64,000 nt of DNA, taken from Halichondria panicea. Taxonomy: Eukaryota; Porifera; Demospongiae; Suberitida; Halichondriidae. Below the pieces are notes generated by a model. The model saw only the letters and a list, made by a program, of their open reading frames with translations. It was not told the origin of the DNA and did no database searches. The DNA lies in assembly GCF_963675165.1 (NCBI RefSeq), contig NC_087393.1:3601502-3665501 (forward strand), given 5' to 3'. Both the position numbers and the translations under genes were made by a program. Shown here one piece after another: positions 17,290 to 51,203 of this stretch; the stretch's first letter is position 1; every line of letters begins with the position of its first letter.

Positions 17290-18237
17290 TTATTGCTCGG
17301 TTGTCATGCGTTCACCGGTTTCTTCAATTGGACCGGGTACGGTTTCTTTTGGAACCATCGGTGGTGCTGGTGGTGGTGCTGCAACAGCTGGTTGTTGTGG
17401 TTGCTGAATTGCAGGCTGATTGCCAACGTTGACTAGCAAGGCGGCAAGGGCCGGATCAATACCATCTGCAAACTTTATGGTTGCAGTACTCCCAGATGAC
17501 GTTGCCAATTGTAACGTAGCTTTTGTTCTGCCGGCAAATTCCTTCTCCATTTCAAGCCGTTCGTTGTCAGCATGCTGTTGAAAGGCAGCAGAACGTTTCT
17601 TTAGTTGCAAATCAAGATCCTGACTTTCTTTTTCATATTTGAGTGATTGTTCTCTTTCTTGCTTTTCAAACCCAATTTTCAGTTCAGCCATTGCATTCCT
17701 CTCCTGTAACTCAGCCTTCTTGATTTTTTCCTCCGCTTGAACTCGCACCCTTTCTTCTCTGATTTGCAATGTATTCATTTCTTCTTCCAATTTACGTTTA
17801 ATTTCATTGCCTTTCTTTTCGTCTAGCTGTTTTGCTTTTTCGTATTCTGCCTTGTTCATTTCCATTTGAACTTGAAGTTGTGCCAACTGATTCGACTTTT
17901 TTGCTTCAATGTCTTGCTGAGCCTTTTCCCTCTCAAGTTTGGCCTCACGCTCTTTCAGCTCCAGTTCCGCTTCTCGTTTCTGCTTATCTAATTCTGCTTT
18001 GAGCTTTTCCTTTTCGTGTTCGTTAACACCTCTCATTTTGTTAATTTCCAGCTCATCTTTGGCAAGCTTATTCGTCACACAGCTGTATTGGTTTATAATC
18101 ACAGCATGGCACATAATTATATTTGCATCACATTGCTAAAAAGCGTACCTTTGACACCAACCGGAAAAGTCTGGTGTATCAGAAACCTGCACAGCTTCCC
18201 TGCCACATTCCTTACACTTTGACTCTCCTTCTCCCAT
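17290..18237 (-). CDS. Zinc-knuckle/coiled-coil family, left-hand type, copy 1
   Basis: Exons 18237-18149 and 18082-17290 join to 293 residues. Exon 1 gives Cys8-x2-Cys11, and the junction gives Cys28-x2-Cys31 (GWCQSC), a plausible four-Cys zinc site. The 66-nt intron is phase 2 and splits the Ser codon just before Cys31. Residues about 35-210 are an unbroken, highly charged coiled coil (KREAELELKEREAKLE). A short non-helical domain follows (ATLQLATSSGSTATIKFADG then DPALAALLVN), then a Gln/Pro-rich tail. It is paralogous to the gene at 31962-35239 (KREAELELKERE is identical; NPALAALIF matches). No known family is recognised. It diverges from the gene at 18448 across 210 bases, with a TATAAAAC box on the minus strand at 18336-18329. 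Confidence 0.85.
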
Positions 18238-18447
18238 ATTGTTACACCGCAGAAAGAAACAATCCGAACTGAAGAAGCAAAAAGTGAAGCAAATGGTTCT
18301 TGCAATTACCAGTTTGCAAAAAAATTCTGTTTTATAGAAAACCTGATAATTATATGCATGCATGCACGTGTGGGTGCATGGAAGCTGAGTTGTATAAAAG
18401 ACATTGCACATGATGTTGCAGCAATTTTGATTTTTTAAGACTGAATC
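18238..18447. promoter_or_regulatory. Bidirectional promoter of family pair 1
   Basis: TATAAAAG at 18393-18400 lies 48 bases before the plus-strand ATG. TATAAAAC on the minus strand (18336-18329) lies about 92 bases before the minus-strand ATG. The corresponding minus-strand box in pair 2 lies about 95 bases from its ATG, so this part of the layout is conserved. Confidence 0.6.
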
Positions 18448-19367
18448 ATGGCAAAAAGGCTGTACAATAAGTTCATAGGAGGCGGATCGGGAGGTGCTAC
18501 AGAAGTCTGCCTATTTTGTTTAAGAGAGATTAAAACTACTGAAGACAAAGAAAGAGGCAATCTCCATGAGAGGTAACTGTCTTCCTTGTTAATATGACAG
18601 AACAATAATTATTACCTTTCCATAGGTGTGCTGTGCTGGATAGTAAGCGTGCCCAAGTACTGAACTACACTTCTGAAGAGCAGGATGAAATTCGAAATCT
18701 CCGTCCCTCTGAGTGGACAAGGATCATGAAAGAGATCAGCATAAAAGAGATGGAGCAGATACAATACGAGCATTCCAAAGAAGAAAAGAAAATACGGGGA
18801 GACCTTGAATTCCGTGAAAGCATAATTGAGAAGAAAAAAGAAGAGTTAAAACACCTTCATGAAGATAGACTCGAGGAAATTGAAGCTGGAGCAGAGAAAA
18901 GAATAGAAGACCTGAAGGACAGCACTCGAAAAAAACAGCAGGATCATGCAGTTGAAATGAAAAAGTATGAAGAAGCTCACAAGCTTAAAATACGAAGAAA
19001 GAAAAAGGAGCTGTTGGACCTAAATAAGAAATCAGGTGAAATCAAAGACAAATACAAGGAAGCGTTTGAAAAACAAGAAGACTTCATTCAAAAAAGAGAA
19101 CAAGAGCTAGACTCTGACTTCAGCAAGAAATGGGATGAACAACAAGTAAAGCTTGAGAAAAATGCTCTGGATCTCGAAGCCGAGCTCGAGCAGAAGCAGC
19201 TACAGTTTGAAAAGGAGATGGAAGAAAAACGTATTGCTTTCGACAAGCAGCTTGACAGCCAAATGACAGCCGAGATAAAAATGACTAAAGAAGACGGCAC
19301 TACATTGGAAATGCGTGAAAAGGGACCAGGGATAGTGACAGACTTTATCAATACTATGATGAATTAG
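18448..19367 (+). CDS. Zinc-knuckle/coiled-coil family, right-hand type, copy 1
   Basis: Exons 18448-18572 and 18626-19367 (53-nt phase-2 intron) join to 288 residues. Cys21-x2-Cys24 and His40-x2-Cys43 (LHERC) form a CCHC-type zinc-knuckle candidate. The intron splits the Arg codon before Cys43. Next come VLNYTSEEQDEIRNLRPSEW, about 170 residues of charged coiled coil, and a C-terminal domain TAEIKMTKEDGTTLEMREKG then PGIVTDFINTMMN. It is paralogous to 35567-36552 (RCVELQAKRGNVLDYTPEE; GTVLEMREKAPGIVT). No signal peptide or membrane segment is seen, so it is probably cytosolic or nuclear. It likely partners with its divergent neighbour (inference from coiled coils plus a shared promoter). Confidence 0.87.
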
Positions 19368-20601
19368 AATACTATAATTATACTAGAAAAAACTTGATAA
19401 ACACCTCACAACCGTAAATGTTGTTCCTCATTTGTGAATGTATATCCTCTCGAACTTCAGTTACCCCACCCCCATCTAAATGGCATAATAAAAAATATAT
19501 ATAACTCTCTTGCCTACACAGCCAAAAAGAAGCTAGACACTTGTTGGCAAGAGCAGGATATTTTTATGGGTGGGGCTCACTATAAACACCAGGAAAGCTG
19601 GGAAAGGGTGGGGGGCTCACTGCTTGGACATTGGAGTACAGTGCAGTTTTGGCTGCAATAGCGAGGTGGCTGTATTTCAGAAAATACCTGCGGTCCTGCC
19701 TTGAAACAAAACATTACGCTCTCTACACCCAACACGACATATATACCCGGGTGTAATAAAAATGTGCCAGAACTGACAGTACGAAATAGTGAGGTGGTTG
19801 CAATTCAGGGCGAGTTTTGTACGGTATGATCTTCTAGTAATAATAATGTGCCAGAGTCTATATACTGTAGTTGGCATATACATGCAAAGCCTAGTTATTC
19901 CTAAGTGTCAGTAATTATTTGACACTGTGCAATTCAAGTGGGTAGTGCATGTACAGTGTTGATCGTACAGTGCATGTTTATATACAATGTAGTGCATGTC
20001 AGTAGTATAATGAGAGGTTAATTAGCCAGTTTCAGTATCATCTAACAGCAAAGTCTATAACTATTTGTGAGCTTAGTTTGGCCATGCACTGGTGCACTGT
20101 GCAATGCGTATATAGATAACTCAAGGTTGGGGTTAATAGCTATAGGGGAGTTATAAGGATAGGGGTTGGTAGATTATGCTCGAGATATTACTTTATTATG
20201 CTATCCTTTTATGCTCAAGTTATATTAACAGCCTAATAAATTGCCTACAAATCGCCTATTATTCCTCTAAAGAACACAATAGGCCCCCTTATCTTTGCAC
20301 AAGTAACAAATATTGGTCACATGACTCTATCATTAACAGGAGATAATTAACACGACTTGCATTCCCAAAACTTGCCTATTATCTCTCATAATTGTTTTGA
20401 AGGTGCCTATTATGTCAGCATAATTCTCACCAAAAATGTGACTATTAACTACCATGCAGCATAATCTACCAACCCCTATACACATATAGGGCCCATGCAT
20501 GCTATACGATAAGTTATACTGCAGATGTACACCAAAATAGTGTTCGCTGCATGCATGGGTTGTGGTTGCATGGGTATAAATTATACACTCTTATTTGTGT
20601 A
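19368..20601. other. AT-rich spacer, no gene seen
   Basis: Two loosely similar blocks (about 19665-19770 and 19785-19870) share GCGAGGTGG/GTGAGGTGG followed by AATAATGTGCCAGA or AAAATGTGCCAGA, suggesting an old tandem duplication of about 110 bp. No coding frame is supported. Confidence 0.45.
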
Positions 20602-21494
20602 CTAGGCAACAACATGTACTAGTATAAATTGAATTCGTGATTTCCCTGGGATTATCCCTTTATATAGGGTAGTATCTGATGGAATGAGCCCACAACTTTC
20701 AGTAATGCACATGGGAGTGAATAACATGCACCGCAGATAACAAATCTGACCAATTCACATGCATGCATGGCTTTACTACCAAAGCTTATCAACCGCTGAG
20801 GCCATTGGCCCTTATAATGTTCAGTGTGTATAATTATGTATAGTGAATAACATACACTGCTGATAAACAAACTTGACCAATTTACATGCATGCATGGCTT
20901 TACTTATCACCACTGCAGGCACAGCAGCTGTCCATATTATACCGTGCATGCCATGCAGTATTAGCTACGCAATAAACACAACAGCTGAAATCCCTCCAGC
21001 CAAGGGCCGCAAGCAAAATCTTGGATGGGCATAACCAATATGTAGTACAACCAGCAAAACGGCTCATATAATTATACCAGACTTGGCAATATGGCTTTGC
21101 AATGCTTCTCCGTATACATGCACGGCAGTCATAATCTCCAAATACCCGGATATATAGGGCTACCTCCCTTCTCCTAAAAAACATTGCATACCTCAGCCAA
21201 AGGTTACATGCATGACATAATTATTATCAGTTATTGTTACGCCATACGGTACTAGATCTATACGGAAACTGAAACTGGAATCATACAATAACACTAGTGG
21301 ATAGTGAGTGCATGCATGTATGGTGTGTAAGCGGGTGAATGTCACACGCTAAAAAACAGCTGACAGGGAATTCGTTACTTTGAGCAATGTCTGTATTATT
21401 ATAGTTACAGGCTCTCATGACTGCATGCAAATGGATGACTGAAGATAATATCTCACGCATGCGTGCAGTACTGTAGCAACTGAAATTGATACGT
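20602..21494. repeat. Segmental duplication, copy 1
   Basis: Starting at GGCAACAACATGTACTAG and ending near GTAGCAACTGAAATTGATAC, the stretch is repeated in the same orientation at 22092-23800. Shared landmarks include CACTGCAGGCACAGCAGCTG, GTAGTACAACCAGCAAAACG and GTGAATGTCACACGCTAAAA. Neither copy codes for protein. Confidence 0.8.
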
Positions 21495-22091
21495 TATATA
21501 ATATAGTTTACTATGATCCATAGCATAACCCTTTACTGGTCAAATTGTTGTAAATTTTACAACAACAATCTGGGAGGGAGCGTGTTATCAACTTGTGAAT
21601 GTTGCATGATATTGAATTCTGTGGCAGATTGGATAGTATCATGAATGCGATTATCCTTTGAAGTTCTGCTGAGCTGTTCAATTAGGACACATGACTGGTT
21701 GTTGGCCAAATGCCATATTATTGTAGAAAACCGTTACCCTAACCCTATATATAGGCTATAATACAAAGGGCCTGGGAATCAAAACATCTGTCTCCTTAAA
21801 CCTCTGATCGACATACATGCACCGCAGTTAGAAACAAACTATAGCCTCAAACCAGGCCGCTTTAAGTTGTACTCTCTTGCATGATCAACCATGATTGTTG
21901 CTAAAAAGAATAGATACCAAAACTCCAAAGTCTGGCTGCTGTATATAAACAGAGCTAGCCTCGATTCCAGGCCGCTGAGGCCTTGTGAAGGAGGCTAAAA
22001 CAGAGCCTGCAGAGCTTTGCAGCTTTTTTCTCTTTTCTCCTCTTATGCAGCTATATATATATATAGCGTTTTAGTGCAGAGTAAGTATATA

Positions 22092-23800
22092 TAGGCAACA
22101 ACATGTACTAGTATGAATTGAATTCTGATTTCCCTGGGATTGTCCCTTTATAGTATCTCTGAGCCCACAACTTTCAGTAACTCAGGTAGGTTAAGGCAGC
22201 TTTTCAGCAAAACAGCATTAAATTGAAGATAAAGTGTACTGTATACAACTCAGATTTATTGTATAATAATATTATCTTGACAATAGTACCTTTTTTCACC
22301 CAAAATGTATTGTGGACATAAATACAATGCAGCCTCCAATACTACAAAGCAATATTACTACCAAAAGAAAGCTATTGGTGATATCTAATAGAAAAATGGT
22401 TAGTATTTGGTATGAGGTCATTCTAGCTCAGATTACAGTAACTTGAATTGATAAAAATGCTGAAAAATGGAGAAAATTAATAATTCATATGCATACTGTA
22501 CAAAATACATGAAAGCATCCCTAAATACTAGCATAGTTCCTACTGTACTATAGTAAGAGCTTTCTTTTGATACTAAGACATAGGCGTAGGAACCAGGGGG
22601 GCAAGGGGGGCAGTTGCCCCCCTCAGCCAAATATTTTGCTTTTTCGCCCCCCTTAGCCAGCACTGCTCTCTAATAGATATTTTGGAGAATTTTAAATTGT
22701 GTCTCAGTGATATTGGTATAACATATTGTTTGCCCCCCTTAGGTAAAACATCTTCCTACCCCTATGTAAGATGGGGTCATGAAATTGTGTATTGGAGGCT
22801 GCATTCTGAAAAGAGTTGTTTAAAATAAATGGTCACAGGTAACACACACACAACATGCCAGTAACCATGGCAATGATGTTATCATACTGATCCTTTCTAC
22901 GTATAAGATATAATTCAAGAGCAAAAACATGCATTGATGATGCCATTTCACAATGACAAGGCACTTCATTAATTATACTATTTATGGCACTGATCTTAAT
23001 AATTATGCCTTAACCTACCTGCATGAGAATACATGCATGGGAGTGAATAACGTGCACCCAATATAATTATGCATTCAATATGCATGTATGGCTTTACTAC
23101 CAAGGCTTATCAACCGCTGAGGTCATTCATCTGAAGTTGTCCATAAACCATGCAGCCCTACTATATATATAAGCGGCTGGTTGGGATTGGCCCTTATAAT
23201 GTTCAGTGTATAATTATAATTATAGTGAATACCATACATGCACTGCTGATAACAATTTACATGCATGCATGGCTTTACTCAAGGCTTATCAACCACTGCA
23301 GGCACAGCAGCTGTCCATACTATACCATGCATCAGGAGTGCCGATGAAACCTAATATGTAGTACAACCAGCAAAACGGCTCATACCAGACTTGGCGACAT
23401 GGCTGCATGCTTCTCCGTATACACAGCAGTCATAATCTCCAAATATCCGGAGAGGACCATCTCCCTTCTCCTATAGCTCTACCAAAAAAACGTTGCATAC
23501 CTCATGCCAAAGGTTGCATGACATAATTACTGTCAGAGTATTATTATTACGCCATGGATACTACGGTACTATAAGCAAGTACTGAAACTGGAAAATTAAT
23601 CATAAATAATATAGTGGATAGTGTGCATGCATGCATGCATGATGTGTAAGCGGGTGAATGTCACGCACTAAAAAACAGCTGACAGGGAATTTGTCACTTT
23701 GAGAAATGTCTATAGTCACAGGCTCTCATGACTGCGTTGCAAATGGATGGTTGAAGATATACCTCACACATGCCGTACTGTAGCAACTGAAATTGATACC
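22092..23800. repeat. Segmental duplication, copy 2 (interrupted)
   Basis: Same landmarks and order as 20602-21494, but with an 839-bp TIR element (22183-23021) inserted after CCCACAACTTTCAGTAA. After the insertion the shared sequence resumes at GGGAGTGAATAACGTGCACC. Local duplication therefore came first and the insertion came later. Confidence 0.8.
22183..23021. mobile_element. 839-bp TIR element inserted in the duplication
   Basis: The ends CAGGTAGGTTAAGGC (22183-22197) and GCCTTAACCTACCTG (23007-23021) are perfect 15-bp inverted repeats. A second inner inverted pair, ATGCAGCCTCCAATAC (about 22328) and GTATTGGAGGCTGCAT (about 22791), is also present. No transposase frame is seen. A shorter G/C-run inverted segment (about 22582-22765, AGGCGTAGGAA to TTCCTACCCCTAT) is nested inside. 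Confidence 0.8.
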
Positions 23801-24679
23801 TTAGGGGTATCAGTATAGTATAATTATAGTAAAGCCACAGTAAGTTGGTTGTATCTGCATGTGGTGTATGCATACGTTATTCACTCTGCATGCACATACC
23901 GGTTTCACATATTCTCATATAGGGTCAAATCCCAGGGGAACTTCATGCATGCATGTTATTCACTCTGCATGCACATACTGAAAGCTGTGGTTCGCATATT
24001 CTTATCTTATAGGGTCAAATCCCAGGGGAACTTCATGAATGCATAATTATAATAGCAGTGTTAATTGCAAGCTGCGCTGTGTTAATGCCTCTCGCCATGT
24101 TATGCTTTTGTTCAAAAAGTATTGGAGTGATAGAGTAGAGGGAATAAGTTTTTTCTATGAAGTTCGAATTTATACCCTTCATATACATATCTATAACTGA
24201 GAAGACTAGTGCTCAAGCTGGCGCTGTGCTAATTCCTCTCACCATGTTTTTGCTTTCGCTAAAAAGTATTAGAGTGTTATATTAGTTTCTATAATATTAA
24301 AGTTAGCTTATCTATATAAAGTCACTGAGAAGAAAAGACTTATTTACATGCATCTATTGTTGTTATTATTTATTGTATTATGTGGCTTACCAGGACCTCA
24401 AGAAAGAAGAAAATTGATTCTTCCAAGATCTGTAGTTCAGTGTATATAATATCTAAGAAGAAAAGATCTGTGTACATGCATATTGTTATCTATATTGTTA
24501 TATGCCATGGTAGTGTTTTGTGGCTTACCAGGCCCTCAAGACAAAGATGATTCTGCCAGGAGGATCTGGATCTGGATCTTGGATATTATTTTCTCACACA
24601 TGGGGAATAAGCGCGCATGCGCATTACATCCATAGGAATAATTAAAGGGTGTGTCCAAAGAGATCAATTTCACAAATGG
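23801..24679. other. Small duplicated blocks, no gene
   Basis: CATGCATGTTATTCACTCTGCATGCACATAC and neighbouring AGGGTCAAATCCCAGGGGAA are repeated (about 23875-23945 and 23947-24035). CAAGCTGCGCTGTGTTAATG-type blocks at about 24065 and 24218 recur at about 28031. These are short local duplications. Confidence 0.5.
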
Positions 24680-27080
24680 CTACCGTACCGAGGGTCCGCA
24701 ACGGGCCAAAATTCTGTACGAGATTCTGGAATCTTAAGATTCCAAGGAGATTCCGATGAGATTCTGAGATTCCATTCAGGATTCCAAGATTCCTGAGATT
24801 CCATTAAGATTTCAAGATTCCATTCAAGATTCCAAGATTTCTAAAGATGATTCCTATAACTCTTTCCTTGGCAATCTGTTGTAGAAATTACAACAATGGG
24901 TAAGGAATCGTTATGATGAATTAGATGAAGTTGTATGTGAGCTCCTCCCTGACAAACAAACTGTAGTCTAGGTAACCGCCTTATCAGTCAAGTAGGCTAA
25001 AAATCTGTGTCCTTTGATGTAAGCTTTGATGTCTCTTTGTGCATATGTAGTTATAAAAAATAAAAAATAAAAAAAAGAAACCTTTGACTAGCTAGGAAGA
25101 GTAGCAGCAGTAGTAGTAGCAGTGCAAGCAGGACTAGACTAGATTAAAAAGTTGGTGGAAAGAATAACTGACCGTTTGGACGTCACCTGGCTGCCAGACT
25201 TTCATCTGGACTCTTCCCCCTGAGTAGCTGGCCTTTCTCTAAGCCACAAAACTGAGCAAGAAGCTGAAGAAGCAGCTAGACAGAGACATGTACCTAGCCT
25301 TGAGAATTGGGAGGCGTGGCTCAACTAGTTAGCCCAGCCCAGAGGAATTGTTACCGTGGGTACTGAACAACCGTAGAAGTAGGGCTACCCCTGGCTTTAC
25401 TGAATTAACTAGCTGTGTCTGCTGTCTAGTTGGACCAGATTTAGCTAGATAATGGGGTAGAGAATAGTTGAGCGGTGCTGTGTGTAGCTTGAACTGTACT
25501 GGCTGGCAAGAATCTAGTAAGCACCCTATGCACTGATAACTCGTCAGAATGGAGGGTATGTTCTAGGGATCTGGACAGCTGTACATCCAAAGGAGCCAGG
25601 GAGTGCCAATCATCTTCTCCCAGTCTCTGACACGCTAAACAAAAGGAGCTAGAACTGGGAGTCCCAGCTAGAATTGCTAGCCGGATCTAGACTAATAGAA
25701 TGACATGGAGGCGTGGTGAGGCCGGATCCACACTAATTGATCGACCTAAAGACGCTCCTGTTCCAGATTTCACGAATGGCAAGGAAAGGGTTATGACTTT
25801 TGGCTAGTCCTGGGCGTGGCCTTTCTGAAGATTGTGGGCCACGCCCTGATCTAGTCGATCTCGCCGCCCCCCTTCTTCCGGGCAACGATAGAGGGCGGCG
25901 GCGATCGACTAGCCCTGATCCATTATAATTAACCCGAGGCGCGTGGGCGGACACGGGTTATAGTAGTCATTATATCTGAATTGATGAACATAAAATAATT
26001 TTATAAAGACTAGACTATACGTCTTGTTGGCTATAAAGTCATTGATTCTAACTACTTTATCGCTTTATTGACACTTGGTTGCAATACCATTTTTTTTGGC
26101 GGCGTTGATGCATCTACCAATCTTCACATCCGTCACAGCCTACCTTGGCCATCATCTGCACATCGACAGTAGCAATAGACAGGGATTTTCAAAGTGCTCT
26201 CTTTGTCCATCCTGTGATACATAATATTTTTTCATGTATACACTGGTATACTGCAGGTCAGACTCACCGGCACCATAAGCTCCCTACCAATAGGGGAGCC
26301 TTGTCCCTCGCTTCGTCCATCCTGTGATGCATATACAAACTTTCATGACAACAATTATTTCGCTGATACTGCATACCACCATAAGCTCACTCTCATTAAG
26401 AGTGGACAGTTTGGACTTGAAGCCTTGTCCCTCGCTTCGTCCGCCCTGTGATGCACAGACCTATATATAATTATGCAACTTTCAACTATAAATTATTACG
26501 CTGGTACTGCATCAGACTCACTCACCATAAGGTCACTCTCGGCATTAAGAGTGGGCAGTTTGGAGCTGATTTTGGGAGAGCTTTGTCCATCACTTTGCTG
26601 TTCAGCATGCATGTACGTATACACATTTTTTCATGACTATAACAATTATTATTATTATGCTGGTTAAACTCACCTTAATCTCTTTAGGAAACGTCTATAA
26701 TCTGCACACAGAGCTGCATGCTATGAGGATAGAGAGAGAGAGATGTGTACTCTAGTTTTAATTAATTAAATAGCAGCTGAGCCTGCAACCGCAATTGCAA
26801 TCGATAATCGGCCTGGTCTCGAGGCTACTGCAACCTCAATAATAATCTACGGCAAAGTATACGGTTTATTTATATACATTTACGGGTATCTCATTAACAT
26901 TCCACAAGATTCCAGAGATTCCAAGAGATTTCAGAGATTCCAAGGGATTCCAAAGATTTCACAAGATTCCAGAGATTCCACAAGATTTCAAGATTCCAAG
27001 TGAGATTTCAAGATTTCAGTTGAGATTCCAAAAATTTTGTACGAGATTCCTGGCCGTTGCGGACCCCTCGATGGCTACTG
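24680..27080. mobile_element. About 2.4-kb element with inverted ends and AGATTCCA arrays
   Basis: The left end (GAGGGTCCGCAACGGGCC, about 24699) is inverted at the right end (GGCCGTTGCGGACCCCTC, about 27052). Immediately inside both ends lie arrays of degenerate AGATTCCA repeats (24719-24850; 26900-27040). The interior holds a GC-rich block (25800-25950) and a tandem array at 26195-26630. No open frame resembles a transposase, so it is probably non-autonomous or built of several insertions. Confidence 0.65.
26195..26630. repeat. Degenerate tandem array, unit about 125-150 bp, three units
   Basis: Each unit carries CTTTGTCCATCCTGTGAT or a variant, a TTTCATG block, ACCATAAGCTCACTCTC and CATTAAGAGTGGACAGTTTG. 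The third unit is the most diverged. Confidence 0.65.
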
Positions 27081-27117
27081 CTAGCTAGCTGTTTTAACAG
27101 ATATTTTCTGAGTATTG

Positions 27118-27340
27118 TAGCTAACAAAAAGCTAGCGCTTTAGTGCAAGGCTAACTCATATGTTTAATAGAAAGTTTGTGCGGACAGATGATGCTATGAA
27201 AGATTCTGAAGAGACTGCAACAGCCTTCAATGTGAGTCAAACTAGCCATAACTCGAGAAAGAAGCTTTAGTTTGCTAATCCACGAATCAACATCCAAGAG
27301 AACGTAGCTAGAAGCCTATAGAAGCTGTTAGCTTTCGTCG
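27118..27340. repeat. Dispersed direct repeat, copy 1
   Basis: AGCTAGCGCTTTAGTGCAAG, GATTCTGAAGAGACTGCAAC and GAAGCTGTTAG occur in the same order and orientation at 29648-29880. The two copies flank the composite element at 28638-29625. Confidence 0.7.
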
Positions 27341-27599
27341 CATTGCAACCGTTGAGCAGTTACAGCTTGAACAGATACACAGAACACAGTCGTATCCCTC
27401 GTGCGGCTACGCCTCGAGGCATAAAAAGACTTGTGTACATGCATCTATTGCATAATTATGGTAGTGTTTTGTGGCTTACCAGGACTCACCTCGAGAAAGA
27501 TTCTGCCAAGGAACTGGGGTTCATAATTATGTCTTTTACTCTTTGACATTAAAAGAATTAATTGCAGCATGCAACTTAACATTGTCTAGGAAACCATCG

Positions 27600-27927
27600 A
27601 CCATCGATATAGTTATACCAAAAGTCCAAAGTCTAAAATTAATGGCTGCTGGATCAGCAGAGCCTTAATTGCAGCTCTTTTCTTACTCTTGCAGCAACCG
27701 ATAGCTAGCGTTCTGCAGAGCTTACTTAACTACTAAGTAGAGTAGCAACACTCCATGGAAAAGTTTTGTATGCACTCTTCTTTAAAAGGCTGCAATGGCA
27801 TTCCAAGTAGGCAAAACTCGAGAACCAAGTAATATTTTGCAAAATCCATAAATTAAAAATATGACTAGCCTATAGAAACTCTTACTTGCACTTTATTGAT
27901 CTTGAGTAGCTGTATAGCAGTTTGCAT

Positions 27928-27945
<18 letters not shown>
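27600..27945. mobile_element. Interspersed repeat, inverted copy at 45541-45845
   Basis: AAAGTCCAAAGTCTAAAATT, CTAAGTAGAGTAGCAACACT and CCATGGAAAAGTTTTGTATG are found, reverse-complemented and in reverse order, at 45541-45845 inside the sphingosine kinase gene. Both copies abut a (CA)n/(GT)n tract, so the microsatellite probably belongs to the element end. Confidence 0.7.
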
Positions 27946-27976
<31 letters not shown>

Positions 27977-28637
27977 TATACCTCGGCTTGTGCATGCGCA
28001 CCAATTAAGGCATACAAATGAGTGGTGCAAGCTGCGCTGTGCTAATGCCTCTCATCATGTTTTGCTTCGCTCAGGTATTAGAGTGTTGCAGAGCCTCCAA
28101 GTAGAGACTTTTCTCTTCAGTATTAATCAGCTCATTTTTCCGTATTTAATGATGATTTTCAGTACAAAACATAGAAATGAGATGAAATGCTGTTTTAAAT
28201 TAGTGGCTTTGTAATTACCCGCCCCTTCAATAAAGGGGCGTGGCAAGCGAGACTTGGCTTTACAAGATAAAATTTATAGCTGTCTTTCAGTATCAGACTC
28301 AGGGCATAGAGCTACTACAGCTGTAGGGATGCTACTAGATCATTCACTGTCAACTATAAGGCCAGTTAACTTATTCTGTAAGCTGACAAAAGGTCACTTC
28401 TAGTCTTCTAGATCTACATGTATATCCGTATTTTTGCAGTTAATTCCGTATAACCGTATTAGAAGACAGAAATCCGTATAAATACGGAAAAAACCGTATA
28501 CTTGGAGGCTCGCTGGTGTTGTAATTAGATGAGGTATAATGTGTAAGCATGTAGATCTACAATGTAGAAATATTATTTAAAAAAGGGGTGGATCTGCAAT
28601 AGGTCAGAGTTCACAAGGGCTGCTGGCAATGATTATG

Positions 28638-29625
28638 TACTAGATGGGCGTGCCCGTCCCCAGCTATAAAAGGGGGGATGGGTTCATGCCTATCAAGTAT
28701 TCGTTCTAATTAATGCAGAAAGTCATGCAGCACGAATTAGATTGCGAAGTGCTTACGTAATGTATTTCAGCATCAATCAGATTGTAATGCATTTGTTGGC
28801 TTCTCAGCCTCTCTCCTTCTCTGCAGCATAGATAAAGTAGAGAGAGGGATTGGCAACGGAAGTGGTACACGTCATGCTTAGTCTACGTGGCCTTAAGCCA
28901 TCCCAAGCATTCTATCCGTGTTTCGCTCTGAAACTCCTGCGAAAACCCGGGAAACTTAGTGTATCCAATGCATGCTTCTCAAAGACCCCTCCAACACTTA
29001 ACCTAGTGCCCCCTGATGGTGAGTATCATTTGGAAGAGAAGAAAATGATTGTCGTGAAGTAGCTAGAGGTACACAGAATACTTGTGTGCCTATAGTAGCT
29101 ATGACATAGCTAAGGCTGTGTAAGTAAGTAGTGTTCTCTGTCCCAAATGGCCATAAGTATGAGGTTAAGTTGATGATTAGCAGCAGAACTGTTTGTGGAC
29201 TTTTTACAGACAGAAAAAATGATTTTCATGAATTATTCATGATTAAATTTCCACGTTAGAAGTAAGCCTCGATCAAAACCGTGGGGAAACACGGATTGAA
29301 ACTCGAGGTCACTTCCGTTGCCTATTCCTCTCTCTACTTTATCTATGTCTGCAACAAGCTGAGCTCCGCAGCTACAGTTGCAGACAAAATTAATGTTAGT
29401 ACGTAATGCAGAGAATAAATGCTTGATATATAGGCTTGAAATCCGTCCCCCCATTTTATAGCTAGGGACGGGCACGTCTATGTCTGCAACAAGCTGAGCT
29501 CCGCGGCTACAGTTGCAGACAAAATTAACGTTAGTACGCAATGCAGAGAATAAATGCTTGATATATTATAGGCTTGAAACCCATCCCCCATTTTATAGCT
29601 AGGGACGGGCACGCCCGTCTAGCAG
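28638..29625. mobile_element. Composite inverted-repeat element with a nested MITE
   Basis: The outer arms CTAGATGGGCGTGCCCGTCC (about 28640) and GGGACGGGCACGCCCGTCTA (about 29603) are inverted complements, continuing inward past CAGCTATAAAAGGGGGGATG. Inside lies a family C MITE (28828-29347). The right arm is tandemly duplicated: two units of about 131 bp (29347-29477, 29478-29611) start with GTCTGCAACAAGCTGAGCTC. Confidence 0.75.
28828..29347. mobile_element. MITE family C copy nested in the composite element
   Basis: The left arm ATAGATAAAGTAGAGAGAGG and GGATTGGCAACGGAAGTGG are inverted at the right as CCACTTCCGTTGCC-type and CTCTCTCTACTTTATCTAT. The same arms are found at 5525-6026. Confidence 0.8.
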
Positions 29626-30373
29626 TGTACATGCATGCATACAGCTTTGCAGTTAACAAACAGCTAGCGCTTTAGTGCAAGGCTAACTCATAAGTTGAAG
29701 TTGAATAGAAAGTTTAGATGATGCTATGAAGATGATTCTGAAGAGACTGCAACAGCATTCACTGTGAGTCAAACTAGCCATAATTCGAGAAAAAAGCTTT
29801 ATTTTTGCAAATCCACAAATCGAAAATCAAGAGAACGTGGTTAGAAGCCTGTATAGAAGCTGTTAGTTTTCGTCCTACCAGATAAAGTCGATAAAATCGA
29901 GTTGATAAAACACATTGAGTCGATTTCAGTTTGGGACACTAACATAATTATGGTATTTTGTAATCGCCATTTTGAAACAAAAGGCTCACCATAACTACTC
30001 ACTTATTTTGGTATTCTACTCTCTAGACTGGATGCACTCTCTTTTGGCGGCTACGCCTTGAGGCATGCCTTAAAGTAACATATTTTTCACAGGTAGATTT
30101 GTCTGCGATTTCACTGTTTTTAGCTCATGCATTTTGCTGGTATTAAATTCTGCTAAATTCTGCTCAAGTTACGAAATTAATGTTCTTCGTATAATTCTAA
30201 TTACTCGCAAGTGGTTTTATTGCATTTTCCAATTGTCTGCAAGTATAATAAACATTTTTGCGATTTTACTCTCATTCGCAAAGAGCAGAAATTAATACCC
30301 GCGAAAATATTACCTTAAGATAATAAAAATACCCAGTATAAATTGCTGAGTCTGAACATATGCTCTTTCAGCA

Positions 30374-30695
30374 TAGTCTCGCGAGCCACGCCCCTTCACA
30401 TGAAGAAGGATCTGGAAACAGTGTGCATGTGGAGTTGTCCCAGTGGAATTTAATTACGTATTCACTCTGCCATGCCCACTCAAAACTGTCAAAAGTGGGC
30501 GTGGAAGATTAGTTTTTCGGCTAATTCATTATGTCATGTGGGTGTGGTTTTATGATACAAGTGGGTTGATGACCTTTTACAAATCCTATGATCTGATAGG
30601 CAACGTCAATTTAGGATCCTGGCGTAGGGGACAACTCCACATGCACAATGTTTCCAGACCCTTCTTCGTGTGAAGGGGCGTGGCTTGCGAGACTA
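30374..30695. mobile_element. 322-bp MITE with about 65-bp TIRs
   Basis: The left end TAGTCTCGCGAGCCACGCCC and the right end GGGCGTGGCTTGCGAGACTA are inverted complements. The pairing continues through AGAAGGATCTGGAAACA and GTGGAGTTGTCCC. A solo end (AAGGGGCGTGGCAAGCGAGA) lies at about 28237. Confidence 0.9.
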
Positions 30696-31961
30696 CCTTC
30701 AGTGGTCGATAATCCCTGGTTTATAGAACTACACAAGCAACAAAATTTTAGGATAATACGAGTATGACACTGCATGAGCCATTCGATATACGCTTCGTAT
30801 ATTAATTTGTATCTCTTTTACCCCAATTAATCCAACATAATTATTACTCAATGTACGTTGTTGCCATCCGGAAGTGGTGCCCCACCCCATACCACCAGCC
30901 TTCTTGTTAAAACTCTATAATTATTATACGACACTAAAAGTTGTGTGCTTTTTATTTCAGGTCATCCTTTGCCAGAATGCAGAATGGTAAATTAGGAGGA
31001 ACCGTATAATTATTATAATAACTGACAGGACATATTATTTTATGTACCTCTTAGGCTTACCTAACTGGAGAGTGCATGCACTATCACATTGACAGAAGTG
31101 AATAGTATTCCGGTGAACCTCTTTGTGCACCTGTTCTTCTCTTCGGTTCTTGGAGCTCTTCGGCTCTCTGGAGTTGCTCCTTGTCATGCATAATGCAATA
31201 AAAAAGCTTATAGATTTAGCTATCTCTATCTATTTACAAATCTGTAAGTGCAAATCTGTAAGTGCAAAAAATTAGTATAATTTTGCTGTGAATCTGACGA
31301 TTTTTTTAATGAAAATTTCGGTCCATGGACTGAAAAATATGCCCCCCGCCCTGAAAATTTCGGTCCGCTAATCTTGTGGTTGCACTAGTAGCAATAGAGC
31401 TATGCATACAGTAGTTATATATAGGGTCTGATAAATTATGTTCAATTATTTTATAGAACAGGGTAAATATCTTTTAAAAGTCCTTTAATATAGTGTATAC
31501 AATTATGTATCCCTAGTTTAATAATGATACCTCCATGCAGATTTAATCAATCTACATGCATGCATGTATGTATATAGGTCTATTAAAGCTGCAACTCACC
31601 CACACTACAGTCTGGTTGTCCTTCAGCACTATTTTATATCAAATATCAAGGTACATGTACTCTTCTCTGGCAGCACTTTCTCTTCAAGCCCCACCCTATA
31701 AGCTGTATAATCTGCATAATTATAAATTTTGAAGTGCACTTGGACCCTTTCCTCATTTAAGCACAGACCAGACAAATATTTGGTGCTAATAAATTATACT
31801 CTATACAGCAACGTAAAGTTAATTATCTGACCACAAGAAGTGGTGTCAGTGGGGTTGGGCAACGGGTATACTGATGGCAACTACTATAGACAACACAACA
31901 CCTCTGCACAACCTAGAGTTTGTATGAAATTTACATTATCTACAAAAGACTTCACGGAGAT
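30696..31961. other. Spacer without a recognisable gene
   Basis: AT-rich, with short stop-bounded frames only. A GAAAATTTCGGTCC motif is repeated (about 31313 and 31361). Nothing else is supported. Confidence 0.4.
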
Positions 31962-34900
31962 TTAATTGGGTACACTTTGACCAGAAGGTTTTTCATTCCG
32001 TCCTTGTACAGGTTCTTCCGTCCAACTAGGTGCTTGAATTGATTCTTGCTTTCCCGTACCAGCCATTCTATCGAATATCAGAGCAGCAAGTGCTGGATTA
32101 AGGTCATTTGTGATGGAGAGTTTAGCAGTTTCTCCTGATGGCTTGTTCATCACAAATGTAGCAGATGCCCTCTCACTGAATTTTGCTTCAATCTCAACTC
32201 TTCGTCTCTCCATCTCTTGGTCATGCTCTTGTGATTTTTTATCCATCTCCATTTTTAGTGTGTGGATCTCTTCGGCATGCTTCAGAGCTTGTTTTTTTTC
32301 GTGCTTTTCATGCTCGGCTCTCATTTCAGCAAGTCTCTTTATTTCTTCAAGCTCAACATCTTTGAGTTTTTTCTCACATTCCAATCGCACCCTCTCCTCA
32401 TCAACTTTGAGTTTATTCATCTCAGCATCCAAGAGCCGTTTTATTTCTAGGTGTTTCTCCTTGTCTTCTTGCAAAGCTTTTTCATGGTCTGCTTTCAATT
32501 TCTCCTTTTTGACTTCGAGAAGCGCCATCTGTTCGGCTTTTTTAGCAGCAATTTCATTCTCGCGTCTTTCCTTCTCTAATCTTACTTCTCGTTCTTTTAA
32601 TTCTAATTCAGCTTCTCTTTTTCGCTTTTCTAAATCAGCCAGAAGTTGTGCACGCTCCACTTCATTTTTCTCTTTGTTTCTCTGTATCTCTGCTCTATCT
32701 CTTTCAATCTTGAGCTCAACACAACTGCAAATAGAATGAATTTTTGATGCAGGGGCGTAATTATTTGACTTTCGTCAATTCAGATCATGCTGTTATTGTA
32801 CCTTATAAGTATTAGTACTAGGTACTAATTTTAGCCAGCGCTATTACGCTATTAAATAACTAATGAAAAGGTACTGTTGAGAGTATGCTATAATCTCTGA
32901 CTCTCAAACTTTACATTCAACCTTCTCATACTTATACATCTTTTGACAAATATTGTGCTTATGAATTTGCTGCAAATCCGCCAAAATTATACTATACCGT
33001 ATAGAGGGTAATTTTCGTGGGGTAAAAAATTCGTTTATTTGGAAAACGGTGGTTTTCGTGAGTAAAAATTTCGTTTAGTCTCGTTGCCTGCACTGCATTC
33101 ATACATTCCAGTAAGCCACGCCTATGTTAAAATTTCGTGGAGGTCAGCTTGCCCACAAAAATAATGAATTTTTACCCCAAGAAAATTACCCGCTATACGG
33201 TAGTACCCTAAAAATAGAGAAAAATCTGTAAAATTACTATCGTCTATAATCATGGGCTAAGGAGGTCCGACACAACCTTGATTAGGCTGAAATTGAGATA
33301 ATTAGCCACAAGCAATAACTTTACTGTATACGTAACCAAGAATCAAGCTTAATCAAGGTACTCGTGTCGTACCTCTTCTGACCCCAAATGTTGTAAGACA
33401 GGAAGTGCTACAAGTAGCCTCATGAATATATTAATGAGAACAGGTTTTCTTTGTGTCTGGCTAAGTTATAAAAAGACACTTTAAACTTTAAATTAAGAAT
33501 TTGGTAGCATAAAGTTATGTAAAATGATTGTGGAAACTTTGAGTTTTTGAGCAAGCTGTTCACTATCAACGTAGCAAGCTACAATTAAATTGGTTGAATA
33601 ATTATTAACAAGGATCTATAAATATTCAAGGTAAATCCCATAAAATGGTGTTTGCAGCAGTTACACAAACTTTAACATTAATTACACAATTTTGTAGAAC
33701 ACATCATGAATGACTTTAAGCCTTTCAGCTTGCTGCAAAGCATGCACATGCATCAGATGCACTAGTTGACACTTGAGGGGTACACACATAGTAGGTTTGA
33801 GTTGAGGCTATATACGTTACCTCAATTCCAATTCCCTAAGACAATTCAACTGAGGCTCCGTCAATTCAACTGAGGCTACAGCATTTCAACTGAGGCTACA
33901 GCAATTCAACTGAGGCTACAGCAATTCAACTGAGGCTACGGCAATTCTAATTCGCTACGGAGATTCAACTGTGGCTCTACGGCAATTTGCTACGTTAATT
34001 CAACTGAGGCTACGTCACTATGTCAGTTCGCTTTGCAGTTGGAGAGTACGTACATGGCAGTTCAATTCATATGACTCTTAAAATTCCAGCTCAAATTACT
34101 GGAAATAATTTTGTCAATCTGTATATCACGTACACAATGTAGGCCTACTGAGCTGATTGTCAATGTATAGAACTGTATAAAACTGTTTAACATCATCGAT
34201 CAGTTCTCTCCTTTAATTAACCAGCCTATACGTGTCACAGTACTTGTTAAACAGTTTAGCTAGCTCTATAGACTATACAATTGACCTCAATTCTTGCCAA
34301 TCAGTTCCACAGTCGTTGGCATAATTATTCTATAATTTATGCATGTAACTGTGTGATTGACAAATAATGTAAGATGAGCATGCACCATATGAATTGACAT
34401 AGCACTGACTTATTAGAAGTCTAGTTGAACTGCAAAACAAATTGCCTCAAACCCCTCGAACTATTGAATTGCGTAGCAATTTCTGTAGCCTCAGTTGAAT
34501 CACCCCAGCCTCGAGCCTACTATGTGTGTACCTCAGGGCCACCGTAGCAATCACTGGAAAAATACCAACCACAAAGACTATTCAGTGACTTTTTGCTCAA
34601 TCTCAGAGGTCGAGGAGGATTGTCAGGGTCAAAAGGTCTTAATCATAAAGCTGCTTCGGGAGGACTTTAATTGAATTCCACTCAACTAGCTCCACGTTAA
34701 TTGGAGATACTAAAGGAAGAGTAGATGAGTGGTATTCAACTAAAGTCAAGCTTTTTAACCATGACAATCCTCTTCTGTCTCAAACTTGCTGAGTCAACAC
34801 ATTCCATATTGAACTAATTCATCTCCTAGTAACAAGTTCTAGTTCAGTAATTGGTATGTGTTATGAGGTTTGGAAATCCAGAAAAAATTACCGGTAGAGT

Positions 34901-35239
34901 TTTTGTAGTGTCATCATTGTTATGAAACAATTAAAATACTTGTAAAGTGAATGTAAAAGTCTCAGTGTTTGAAGGCATGCAGGCTAAGTGGCATGGGCTT
35001 AGAGAGAGTCCTAACACACAGTCGGCACAAGTAAAAATATAAGAGAGTCCCCGGCCAACTAAGTCGAGGCTTAGCCAGGTAGATCTAATTACAAAACTGC
35101 ATTTATATCTATCTACAACACTAATAAAAATGTATCTTTACCTTTTACACATGTCCTTGAAGGTGTTTCCAACTGGCGACATTTGCCCACATTTAATGCA
35201 GGTTTTCAGCGATGGTCCTTTCGATTTGCCTCCTCCCAT
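31962..35239 (-). CDS. Zinc-knuckle/coiled-coil family, left-hand type, copy 2
   Basis: Exons 35239-35142 and 32724-31962 join to 286 residues across a 2417-nt intron, which is phase 2 like its paralogue's. Cys14-x2-Cys17 and Cys31-x2-Cys34 (MCKSC) make the four-Cys site. The intron splits the Ser codon before Cys34. Residues about 35-205 are charged coiled coil (KREAELELKEREVRLEKERR), followed by the C-terminal domain (ATFVMNKPSGETAKLSI, NPALAALIFDRM) and a polar tail. The much longer intron holds at least two TIR elements (32995-33201 and 33776-34535), whereas copy 1 has only 66 nt. Head to head with 35567-36552, 327 bases apart. Confidence 0.85.
32995..33201. mobile_element. MITE family A copy, about 207 bp
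   Basis: The left end TACCGTATAGAGGGTAATTT and the right end ACCCGCTATACGGTA are inverted. The second motif TTTTCGTGGGGTAAAAAATTCG is inverted as GAATTTTTACCCCAAGAAAA. It lies in the intron of the minus-strand zinc/coiled-coil gene. Confidence 0.85.
33776..34535. mobile_element. TIR element with a 20-bp subterminal tandem array
   Basis: The ends GGTACACACATAGTAGG and CCTACTATGTGTGTACC are inverted. Inside the left end (about 33837-34015) a 20-bp unit, CAATTCAACTGAGGCTACAG, is repeated about eight times with drift. One inverted unit (GTAGCCTCAGTTGAATCAC) sits inside the right end. Subterminal repeats of this kind can be transposase-binding sites in hAT- and CACTA-type elements. No coding frame is seen. 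Confidence 0.8.
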
Positions 35240-35566
35240 TCTGAGAATAATATATCTTAGGGTTGGTTCTCAGGCAGAAATGCAAGATCTATATAGCTAT
35301 AGTTGAGTACTGACTGCAGGTTTTGTGCTGACAGATTTTTATACAGACATGCAAACAACATGAGATGACAATGCTATAGATAACAATGACAATGAGATGA
35401 CAATGCTATAGAGTGAAAATGCATGTATCATTGTGCTGAGAGGTTTTAACAGGGAAATTCCCAGGGAATCATTAGATGTAAACATTACTTGCTCAGTCAT
35501 CATATGGATGATGCAGCACATAAATTGCATAGAATAAGGGTCCATTATTGCAATTGATCTATAATA
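35240..35566. promoter_or_regulatory. Bidirectional promoter of family pair 2
   Basis: TATAAAAATC on the minus strand (35343-35334) lies about 95 bases before the left-hand ATG, matching pair 1. ATGACAATGCTATAGA is repeated at about 35364 and 35397. A clear plus-strand TATA box is not seen. Confidence 0.55.
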
Positions 35567-36552
35567 ATGGCTGGTTACTTTTTCAAGAGGAGCCTGTTTC
35601 GTCGTAAGGAAGAAGATCATGAAAAAGATCAAGAACAAGTCAGAGATAAGTTGGTTCAGTGCCAGTTCTGCAATGGATACACCAACACTGCTACTGGGTA
35701 CAACAGGGAAGAAATTTTAAGCGTTGCTGGTGGCTACCTGCATACAAGGTATATCAATACTATATTATATAGGTCTGGCCAAATCTACTTATAATATCAT
35801 GCAGGTGTGTTGAGCTGCAAGCCAAACGTGGAAATGTTCTGGACTATACTCCTGAGGAACTAGAGGAGATTGAAAGGCTTACACACGAAGAGTATGCGAA
35901 AATTATCCAAGAAAGAAGCGATAAAGAAATTGAGATTTTAAGAGGGCAAGTAGCTGAAGAGGAAAGAAAATTGCAGCATCGAATGGAAGACCATGAACAA
36001 AATATTCGAAAGCAGCGAGACGAGTTGTACAAGCAGCACGATGCAATAATCCATACAATTGAAGCTCAAACTACAAAAAAGAAAGGATTGCTGGAGCAAG
36101 ATGCTGGGAAGAAACAACAAAAACATGAACAACTGCTAAAGAAAAGTGAAGATGCTCATCAGACTGCCATACAAAAAATGAAGGAAGAATTTTCAGATCT
36201 TGAGAGAGAAACAGAGAATGTGGCTCATGACTACATGCGAAAGTTTGAAGAGCATGATGAAGGAGTTCAACAAAGAAAAACTGAGCAAGACCAAGCTTTC
36301 CAGGAGCAACAGATCAATCAGGCCCAGAAATTTAGTGAAGAAGCATTAGACTTTGAAGCTGAACTCAGACGAGAACAAGAAGAGTTTGAGAAGGAAATGG
36401 AAGAAGAGCGAATAGCCCTTGAGCAGCACTTTGATGACCAGTACCAAACAGAGCTTGTGCTCACAAAAGCTGATGGAACAGTTTTGGAAATGAGGGAGAA
36501 GGCTCCTGGCATAGTCACTAGGATAACTGAACAGTTATTAGGGGACTTGTGA
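35567..36552 (+). CDS. Zinc-knuckle/coiled-coil family, right-hand type, copy 2
   Basis: Exons 35567-35748 and 35805-36552 (56-nt phase-2 intron) join to 309 residues. A basic/acidic N-terminal extension of about 30 residues precedes Cys32-x2-Cys35, and His59-x2-Cys62 (LHTRC) follows. The intron splits the Arg codon before Cys62. VLDYTPEELEEIERLTHEEY matches the same position in the paralogue at 18448-19367. A long charged coiled coil ends in the C-terminal domain TELVLTKADGTVLEMREKA then PGIVTRITEQLLGDL. It has the same architecture as copy 1, with a longer loop between the two zinc half-sites. Transcribed away from 31962-35239 and toward the fifth family member at 37216. Confidence 0.87.
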
Positions 36553-37215
36553 TTAGTTTTAGATTAGCTATATAGACTATCATTTTTCGTTACATACTAT
36601 ATAGTCTAACAGGGTATTGAAATAATAACAGTTGTCAAAATATGTATAAGTTGCAGTGTTCGCCCATGCATGCATGCACGCAGATTATCTAGTGAGAAAT
36701 CAAGCTGTCCGAAGTTTTATAGTCGTCATTTTATATGCTAGATAATTATTGCATGCTCTTTTGCCAGCAATTAAGGCAATTATCTATTTAAACGGGGAAA
36801 GGGGCAGGGCGGCTCGAAACAATTTCTTGAGTCATCGAGTTAGAAATTCATAATTACAGGTATTATCTATATATACGGATGTAAATACATCAGTACTGGA
36901 AAAGTGGGCCGGGCCGGGAGGCTATATATAGCCCCATTGTATACATTTTTGGGGACGGGCACGCCTAGTATACAGCACCATTGTGAACTTACCTGAATTA
37001 TTATTACGGTGAAAAGTGCATGCAAAGGGAATCTCCCTGCATGGTCATTGAGCACAGTGTCACTTCCGAATCAGCAAGTCATTCTCACATTCTGACGAAA
37101 ACTCCCCGGGACTTCCCCATCCAACATCATTGCAGGCTATGCTGAGTCACTATGGGCATGGGGTATATTATAGTAAAGCCCACTGCACAAATCATGCAGG
37201 ACTGATGAAGAATCA
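36553..37215. other. Intergenic region between two family members
   Basis: No gene is visible. GGGACGGGCACGCCTAGTAT (about 36951) is a remnant related to the arm of the composite element at 28638-29625. The promoter of the fifth family gene must lie in the last few hundred bases. Confidence 0.4.
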
Positions 37216-38442
37216 ATGGATCCCCAACAAGTGAAGCCTGTGTTGAAGGATATCAAACTTTTGTTTGAGACAACAACTCCTAAGAAATCTGACACTTGCA
37301 GTGAAGCTGAAAGACCCAAAAGAGTAAAGAGAGATAATCCAGAGTGGCTAAAAGCTTCGAAAGTAGAGCCTCCCAACAATAAAGTTGATGACTTTCAGAA
37401 TTTAAAGAGGTCATCGTCTGTAAGCGTAAGCAAAAAATCATTCCAAATACCTTCAAATAGTAAGAGCTCCAACGGCACTGATATTGCACCTATAAAAGAA
37501 AGGCCAAAGAAAACTGTCCGAGACAATCCTGAATGGCTCAAAACGTCGAAAATTGAATCTCAAAGCAATAAAACTGAAGAGCTTCGGAGATCGTCATCAG
37601 TAAGTGTGCAATCAAGCAAAACATCTTTTGAGAAAGCGACAACCAAGAATCAATCTGACAATTTTATCCGTGAAAAGCCAAAGAAAACTGTTCTAGACAA
37701 TCCGGAGTGGCTGAAGTCATCACGAGTTGATTCTAGTGCTAATAAAATTGATCAGGTACGAGAAAGAGCATCATCTGTGAGCGTGAAAACGAGCAAGACT
37801 TCCTTTGAAGGAAAGGAAAGGAGTGAAAACTCTTTCAAAGCTTGGAAGCAAAAAAGGGATTCAGAAAAGTTAGCTGAAGATGCACACTTGTCTTCACTTT
37901 ATGGACATCTCTCTCCAGAGAAAAAGAAGCTCGAAATTGATTGCATGAAAATGAAAAGGAACATAGAAGCACAAATAAAAGTTGAGGCACAGTATAATGA
38001 GAAGGTAGTGGCAGTTCTTCAACTGGAGAAACCTGGAGCAGAAACTCGTACTGTCAAGTTCACAAACGTTGGTGCTGGTATTGCAGGGAATTTCACCTCA
38101 TTGTCATGCACCATATCTGAGCTGAAAACACCCGAGCAAATTAAAGCTGAACAAGGTCTACTAGCTGAAAGTATCTGCTGGGCTGAGCAAGAAGCACTAG
38201 AGCCCCCTCCGGAGGCGGAGAGGAACAAAAGTACTGGAGTGAAAGAAAATGGTGAAGTAGATTCTGAATCGATGAAGTTTACAGATGTTAAGGCCGGTAT
38301 TGCTGAGCAATTCACGGACAATTTAATGTTAAAGACACCAGAGCAAATGAAAGCTGAACGAATACAGAAATTGCGAGTGGAAAGTGGCCAAAATGTTGCC
38401 AAAGACGACTCTGTTGATCTAACACCAACAACAGAAATTTAA
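37216..38442 (+). CDS. DNPEWLK-repeat protein sharing the family C-terminal domain
   Basis: Single-exon, 408 residues, no recognised family. Three repeats (about residues 33-76, 96-139 and 153-198) each read (R/K)PK(K/R)..-DNPEWLK-(A/T/S)S(K/R)(V/I), an NK, then R(S/A)SSVSV and a (K)SF ending; the Ser-rich parts look like basophilic kinase sites (inference). Residues about 262-295 (VVAVLQLEKPGAETRTVKFT then GAGIAGNFTSL) resemble the C-terminal domain of the four zinc/coiled-coil proteins (GTTLEMREKGPGIVTDFI). The block is partly repeated at about 353-383 (MKFTDVKAGIAEQFT, LKTPEQMKAE). There is no zinc site and little coiled coil. The adjacency and shared domain suggest it works with the neighbouring pairs, perhaps as an adaptor; this is inference. 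Confidence 0.8.
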   Translation: MDPQQVKPVLKDIKLLFETTTPKKSDTCSEAERPKRVKRDNPEWLKASKVEPPNNKVDDFQNLKRSSSVSVSKKSFQIPSNSKSSNGTDIAPIKERPKKTVRDNPEWLKTSKIESQSNKTEELRRSSSVSVQSSKTSFEKATTKNQSDNFIREKPKKTVLDNPEWLKSSRVDSSANKIDQVRERASSVSVKTSKTSFEGKERSENSFKAWKQKRDSEKLAEDAHLSSLYGHLSPEKKKLEIDCMKMKRNIEAQIKVEAQYNEKVVAVLQLEKPGAETRTVKFTNVGAGIAGNFTSLSCTISELKTPEQIKAEQGLLAESICWAEQEALEPPPEAERNKSTGVKENGEVDSESMKFTDVKAGIAEQFTDNLMLKTPEQMKAERIQKLRVESGQNVAKDDSVDLTPTTEI

Positions 38443-50963: not shown

Positions 50964-51203
50964 TCTACACTAGAAGAACTCAGATACGTGAAGCGTTCGA
51001 AGACAATAATTTATATACTTTAGTATTAACTTATACAAGTCTTTTCAAGTGGTAGGTCTAGATCTAATCGCTGACCAGATACTGTTAATTTCCTGTGTCA
51101 ACGGCGCCGGCCACGTGGCATAACTGTACATGACTAGACTGTACATGTACATGTACATGTCAGATAAAAGTCCTTTGTGTTCTCAGTGTTAGGATTTGGA
51201 TGG
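50964..51203. promoter_or_regulatory. Bidirectional promoter, sphingosine kinase / MitoPLD, CCACGTGG box
   Basis: An 8-bp palindrome, CCACGTGG (51111-51118), sits next to GGCGCCGG in an otherwise AT-rich gap. The same octamer is present in the MRPS18C/URB1 promoter. CACGTG is the core of bHLH-ZIP sites such as USF/Myc. GTACATGTACATGTACATGT follows at about 51145. Confidence 0.6.

Follow-up and report, generated by a model that had tools for sequence, protein, structure and literature searches.

The 64,000-nucleotide window of the Halichondria panicea genome analysed here (contig NC_087393.1, positions 3,601,502 to 3,665,501; coordinates below count from the first nucleotide of this whole stretch) carries four genes arranged as two head-to-head pairs, together with a fifth gene that shares one domain with them (Table 1). 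We call the left and right genes of pair A LA and RA, those of pair B LB and RB, and the fifth gene F5. Their models encode proteins of 293 (LA), 288 (RA), 286 (LB), 309 (RB), and 408 (F5) amino acids. The two divergent pairs had been described in a first-pass annotation made from the sequence of the window, and are present with exactly the gene ends that it gave. Wnt genes in the same genome (10 matches above the cut-off, spread over 3 contigs, against none in 14 control genomes) mark it as that of an animal, and its size and compact introns are in keeping with a sponge.

Table 1. Features of the paired genes and of F5 (positions in the window)
Feature	Positions	Strand	Basis
LA exon 2: last zinc-ligand Cys, rod, end domain, Pro/Gln-rich tail	17290..18082	-	spliced model
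LA exon 1: start MGEGESK, CCC of the putative CCCC site (three of four zinc ligands)	18149..18237	-	spliced model
Pair A intergenic stretch, 210 bp	18238..18447	.	TATAAA on both strands
RA exon 1: C, C, and H of the putative CCHC site (three of four ligands)	18448..18572	+	spliced model
RA exon 2: last ligand Cys, two short helices, hendecad rod, end domain	18626..19367	+	spliced model, AlphaFold, period analysis
LB exon 2: last ligand Cys, rod, end domain	31962..32724	-	spliced model, fragment model
LB intron, enlarged to 2.4 kb, with repeated elements	32725..35141	-	spliced model, genome repeat search
LB exon 1: start MGGGKSK, three of four ligands	35142..35239	-	spliced model, N-terminus scan
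Pair B intergenic stretch, 327 bp	35240..35566	.	TATAAA on minus strand
RB exon 1: basic-aromatic N-terminus, three of four ligands	35567..35748	+	spliced model
RB exon 2: last ligand Cys, hendecad rod, end domain	35805..36552	+	spliced model, period analysis
F5, no zinc site	37216..38442	+	open reading frame, single exon
F5: three repeats with DNPEWLK (approximate span)	37303..37845	+	z 16.0 to 21.3
F5: copy of the left-type end domain	37963..38139	+	alignment scores
F5: partial second copy of its own end region (approximate span)	38245..38385	+	z 12.6

Kinship and layout of the gene pairs

With z taken as the local alignment score in standard deviations above shuffled sequences, LA and LB are 43% identical (z 44.9; 95 of 220 columns, gap-free) and RA and RB 38% identical (z 34.6; 97 of 248 columns, with two gap columns, both at the C-terminal end). 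The left members are thus alike and so are the right members, as had been proposed, and this paralogy on both sides supports the further proposal that a whole pair was duplicated when it was already divergent. Resemblance between the two types is much fainter: the zinc ends align no better than expected by chance (z −0.4 to 1.3 in the four left-right pairs), their end domains align weakly (z 1.5, 1.7, 3.6, and 5.9), and their whole-length scores (z 5.4 to 8.7) are inflated by a common helical composition. All four genes nevertheless have a single phase-2 intron in the codon preceding the last zinc-ligand Cys. Mainly because of this common intron site, and in addition because of the layout and the whole-length scores, the left and right types are probably homologous to each other. 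Nonsynonymous (dN) and synonymous (dS) divergence between RA and RB was estimated at 0.58 and 2.88 with NG86 and at 0.71 and 1.17 with YN00; for LA and LB, dN is 0.49 and dS is not computable. By these sequence-based estimates, synonymous change between RA and RB is near or beyond saturation and the paired genes are under purifying selection.

The intergenic stretches contain the motif TATAAA on the minus strand at 18336, 99 bp from the LA start, and at 35343, 104 bp from the LB start, a similar spacing in both pairs, and on the plus strand at 18393, 55 bp from the RA start; the stretch of pair B holds none for RB. TATAAA on both strands occurs in 27 of 1276 stretches of 210 bp, and the arrangement is only suggestive as promoter evidence. 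The two intergenic stretches could not be aligned, with matches of only 7 to 12 bases, which led us to reject a conserved shared promoter. In the sponge Amphimedon, 18,054 genes (45%) are reported to lie head-to-head and a bidirectional promoter is considered possible for almost a third of genes (PMC4773876). Since head-to-head genes are so commonplace in a compact sponge genome, the divergent layout says little about an obligate hetero-oligomer, and the proposal that a shared promoter keeps the two partners in balance carries little weight. More telling than the layout is the copying of a whole pair with both types kept in both copies.

The intron of LB contains two repeated elements, which we traced across the entire genome, an assembly of 131 Mb in 39 contigs. 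One, at 32993-33206, is about 210 bp long, has inverted ends of some 45 bp, and resembles a miniature inverted-repeat transposable element; copies elsewhere in the genome with 90-94% identity were found at 35 of the best 40 of 1794 candidates. The other is split into two parts (33380-33778 and 34781-34936), and four other places in the genome hold both parts close together without the approximately 1 kb that lies between them here.

Putative zinc sites, rods, and end domains

A putative four-ligand site can be read near the N-terminus in the spliced models of all four paired genes, as had been claimed, with the ligands CCCC in the left type (CKEC..CQSC in LA, CIKC..CKSC in LB) and CCHC in the right type (CLFC..HERC in RA, CQFC..HTRC in RB); judging from these motifs, it likely binds zinc. 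Both left proteins begin with MG...[ST]K, a start that 2 of the 592 reads in the window which open with Met and run to at least 30 residues fit, and their N-termini (MGxxxSK) resemble those of N-myristoylated proteins. The highest hydropathy over 19 residues among the five proteins is 1.16, so that all five lack a membrane span.

Behind the zinc site, 187 residues separate the last ligand Cys and the first strand of the end domain in both LA and LB, and 214 residues do so in both RA and RB. Given these equal lengths, the gap-free interior of the alignments, and the near-saturated synonymous change, rod length has been conserved as the sequence diverged. AlphaFold models were made of RA exon 2 and of an 84-residue LB fragment. 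The first consists of two short helices (residues 2-12 and 16-23), a single helix from residue 27 to 212, and then two strands and a helix, with a predicted local distance difference test score (pLDDT) of at least 90 at 164 of 246 residues. According to this model, the right rod proper measures 186 residues, close to the 187 of the left type. The LB fragment is modelled as a helix, two strands, and a helix.

The periodicity of the rods was examined with three residue encodings, a test of the a-d-e-h register, and paired tests of RA with RB and of LA with LB. Both right rods peak at a period of 3.65, in the hendecad range: the best period of RB has P 0.001 in all three encodings (a-d-e-h P 0.002), that of RA has P 0.004, 0.02, and, on the Kyte–Doolittle (KD) scale, 0.062, and the RA and RB pair reaches P 0.0002 at 3.65 with the same a-d-e-h register in both. 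No significant best period was found in LA or LB by the period scan; the hendecad test gave P 0.075 for LA and P 0.24 for LB, the latter with P 0.04 at 11/3 in one of the three encodings, and the LA and LB pair is not significant (P 0.28 at 3.65 and 0.10 at 11/3). None of the four rods has a heptad signal (period 3.5), while the same script placed the tropomyosin positive control at 3.49-3.50, and a heptad coiled coil was consequently rejected for all four. The left rods are rich in opposite-charge i,i+4 pairs, with 35 in LA against 21.0 ± 3.7 in shuffles (P 0.001) and 41 in LB against 28.0 ± 4.1 (P 0.002). Of the earlier description of about 170 residues of coiled coil in all four proteins, a long helix stands (186 residues in the RA model), which in the right type has a hendecad period; for the left rods, which are without a clear period, the coiled-coil label is unsupported.

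A fold search with the end-domain fragment returned no match at E 0.001 or better. Ubiquitin-like chains recur among its weak matches and, on a second look, mostly helix had been aligned (residues 1-45); for this reason, and without a significant match, we do not call the fold new. F5 had been thought to carry the same end domain as the other proteins. This is upheld for the left type (z 9.3 with LB and 5.8 with LA) and is unconvincing for the right type (z 2.3 with RA and 0.4 with RB). When the LB end domain was used as query against the whole genome, F5 came third and last among the places listed (E 4.0).

Relatives, known systems, and other features of the window

Genome searches with the right rod, the left protein, F5, and the two end domains revealed no family member beyond the five genes, although they were run exon by exon with only the best candidates scored, so that diverged copies could escape; LB exon 1 itself was absent from the listing of the left-protein search. 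The right rod was found at two places and F5 at one, and the left protein gave one chance-level match elsewhere (E 1.5).

No Pfam cut-off was reached by any of the five proteins (matches to E 1) or by any of eight end pieces (to E 10). We rejected the best Pfam candidates, namely Vesi_VP2 for RA (E 0.0043, 17.5 of 27.7 bits), a coil match below the cut-off, the Spt4 zinc finger for an LB piece (E 0.014, 15.9 of 25 bits), and PHD_4 for an RB piece (E 0.16, 12.4 of 30.6 bits). NCBIfam gave no match at E ≤0.01 to exon 2 of the four genes or to whole F5. Sequence searches of the PDB found nothing for F5 at E ≤1, only CdvA for a profile of the four proteins (E 0.047, discarded as a coil match), and only RPA49 for a profile of the end domain (E 0.81, also discarded). 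There was no confirmed locus in GTDB, queried with the right and left alignments, or in IMG/VR, queried with right, left, and F5 sequences. Our literature searches turned up no description of such a family, which is no proof of its absence from print. The earlier view that no described family matches is supported within the libraries searched. As far as tested, the family is real and unnamed in Pfam, NCBIfam, PDB, GTDB, and IMG/VR, and we make no claim that it is absent from other animals.

Several known systems share parts of this architecture. The first zinc finger of LIM domains (CxxC..HxxC) has the ligand order of the right type, but a whole LIM domain has two fingers and eight ligands, whereas there are four ligands per protein here and the eight end pieces had no LIM match in Pfam. 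TRIM/RBCC proteins likewise place an N-terminal zinc site before a long coil with 11-residue repeats, as in our right type; unlike the sponge proteins, they have a RING and a B-box and mix heptads and hendecads in the coil. A TRIM RING domain has eight zinc ligands; the four paired proteins have one four-ligand site each, and no RING or B-box match was listed in Pfam for the five proteins or the eight pieces. Hendecads, described in TRIM coils (PMC12549529), are found in the RA and RB pair and are not significant in the LA and LB pair. The left rods may be likened to stable single alpha-helix (SAH) domains, as charged, putatively helical rods with many i,i+4 salt bridges and, the borderline hendecad results of LA and LB aside, no clear coiled-coil period. 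They differ in that the E/K/R fraction, for which values of up to 80% are given for SAH domains (PMC5812594), is just 0.44 and 0.51 in the left rods. The end domain was compared with the N-terminal half of ubiquitin (dimeric fragment 1gjz), for which Foldseek gave E 1.8 at best over the matches listed, with a model of low confidence in this region, and we claim no kinship.

Elsewhere in the window, 2553-3461 (+) encodes a charged, helical protein of some 300 residues that is internally duplicated and matches nothing in Pfam. It belongs to a recently spread tandem family: five near-identical copies (92-96% over the main pieces) lie within approximately 0.6 Mb on the same contig, one of which contains stop codons, and another contig has a distant match (36%). 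A single-exon gene for a family 3 glycoside hydrolase with an Fn3-like end lies at 13053-15254 (-), and an interspersed repeat of about 450 bp at 28900-29347 has dozens of genome copies, 76-93% identical among the best 40 of 2478 candidates. The frame at 44461-45438 (-) is perhaps an exon of a lipid-kinase-like gene; it contains the tandem repeats VDGSKDNAPGAKTTVDTAGD and matches YegS_C below the threshold (E 0.0014, 18.8 of 27 bits). Finally, 51168-51815 (+) encodes a single-exon phospholipase D-like protein (PLDc_2, E 1e-30) with an N-terminal hydrophobic stretch, which we take to resemble PLD6.

Possible functions of the family

We tentatively favour the reading, which we hold with limited confidence, that these genes encode a lineage-restricted cytoplasmic spacer-rod family, perhaps held at a membrane by its left subunit. 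Such a family would have arisen by duplication of a divergent gene pair. At 1.5 Å per residue, 186 residues would make each protein a rod some 28 nm long, tipped by a zinc knuckle and, at the opposite end, by a strand-strand-helix domain pairing with its like. The right type would form a coiled-coil core through its 11-residue repeat, and the left type, as an almost equally long helix with salt bridges, would lie beside it or stand as a single helix. Lipidation of the left N-terminus (MGxxxSK) would keep that end at the membrane. F5 could dock by its left-type end domain and bind some other partner through its three DNPEWLK units, and the duplicate pair would provide a second isoform of the same assembly.

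Several observations weigh against this proposal. The strict N-myristoylation pattern, Gly2 with allowed residues at positions 3, 6, and 7, is passed by LB and failed by LA, which has Glu at position 3. The strand-strand-helix prediction of the end domain is of low confidence (blocks of pLDDT 47-68), AlphaFold readily draws long single helices for charged sequence, and the left type was modelled as the 84-residue LB fragment rather than as a whole rod. Taken alone, RA is moderately hendecad (a-d-e-h P 0.031, besides its weak result on the KD scale), and the signal in LA and LB is borderline at best. Nor can the salt-bridge excess cleanly separate the two types, since it is nominally present in RB (P 0.040) and weak in RA (P 0.084). 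Equal rod lengths may also be explicable by descent alone. The obligate hetero-oligomer proposed in the first-pass annotation is a conjecture for the same reason: the similar rod lengths of the two types (187 and 186) fit it, and common descent explains them equally.

Just as plausible in our judgement is that the proteins form homo-oligomers only, the left and right types being old duplicates that each self-assemble and serve different purposes, the right as a hendecad coiled coil and the left as a single helix, with the divergent layout a mere trace of their origin. The types indeed differ in rod periodicity, in ligand type, and in the sequence of their zinc ends, and head-to-head order is reported as common in a sponge genome (PMC4773876), but the nearly equal rods and the duplication of a whole pair, each copy of which retained both types, speak against this reading. 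A zinc-dependent nuclear or RNA scaffold or regulator, whose knuckle would bind nucleic acid or a histone tail while the rod dimerises, would agree with the Spt4 zinc finger (LB) and PHD_4 (RB) being among the best sub-threshold zinc matches. These matches lie far under the Pfam cut-offs and the left N-terminus resembles a membrane signal, which makes such a role unlikely. The 11-residue repeat of the right type might instead reflect an amphipathic 3-11 helix lying on a lipid surface, as in synuclein and perilipin, and forming no coiled coil. The period of 3.65 in the same register in RA and RB and their basic N-termini (+3 and +4 over 15 residues) are compatible with this, but rods that are 45-52% charged with net charges of −6 and −19 would be unfavourable on acidic membranes, and their core fits the a-d-e-h positions of a hendecad coil; we regard this as very improbable.

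We retain the spacer-rod reading as our preferred one. Its most specific form, in which two homologous, length-matched types, the left lipid-anchored and salt-bridged and the right hendecad, make a fixed spacer of about 28 nm that links a membrane to whatever their end domain holds, and on which a third protein docks by way of that same domain, is rather improbable as a whole. If the left and right types do not assemble, these genes would be one more lineage-restricted family of the kind common in such genomes. If they do, they would constitute a rod system, compact and complete in itself, from an early-branching animal, with a length preserved exactly across a duplication whose synonymous change is saturated. 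They would also offer a testable case both of a molecular spacer and of the way in which divergent gene pairs remain together.

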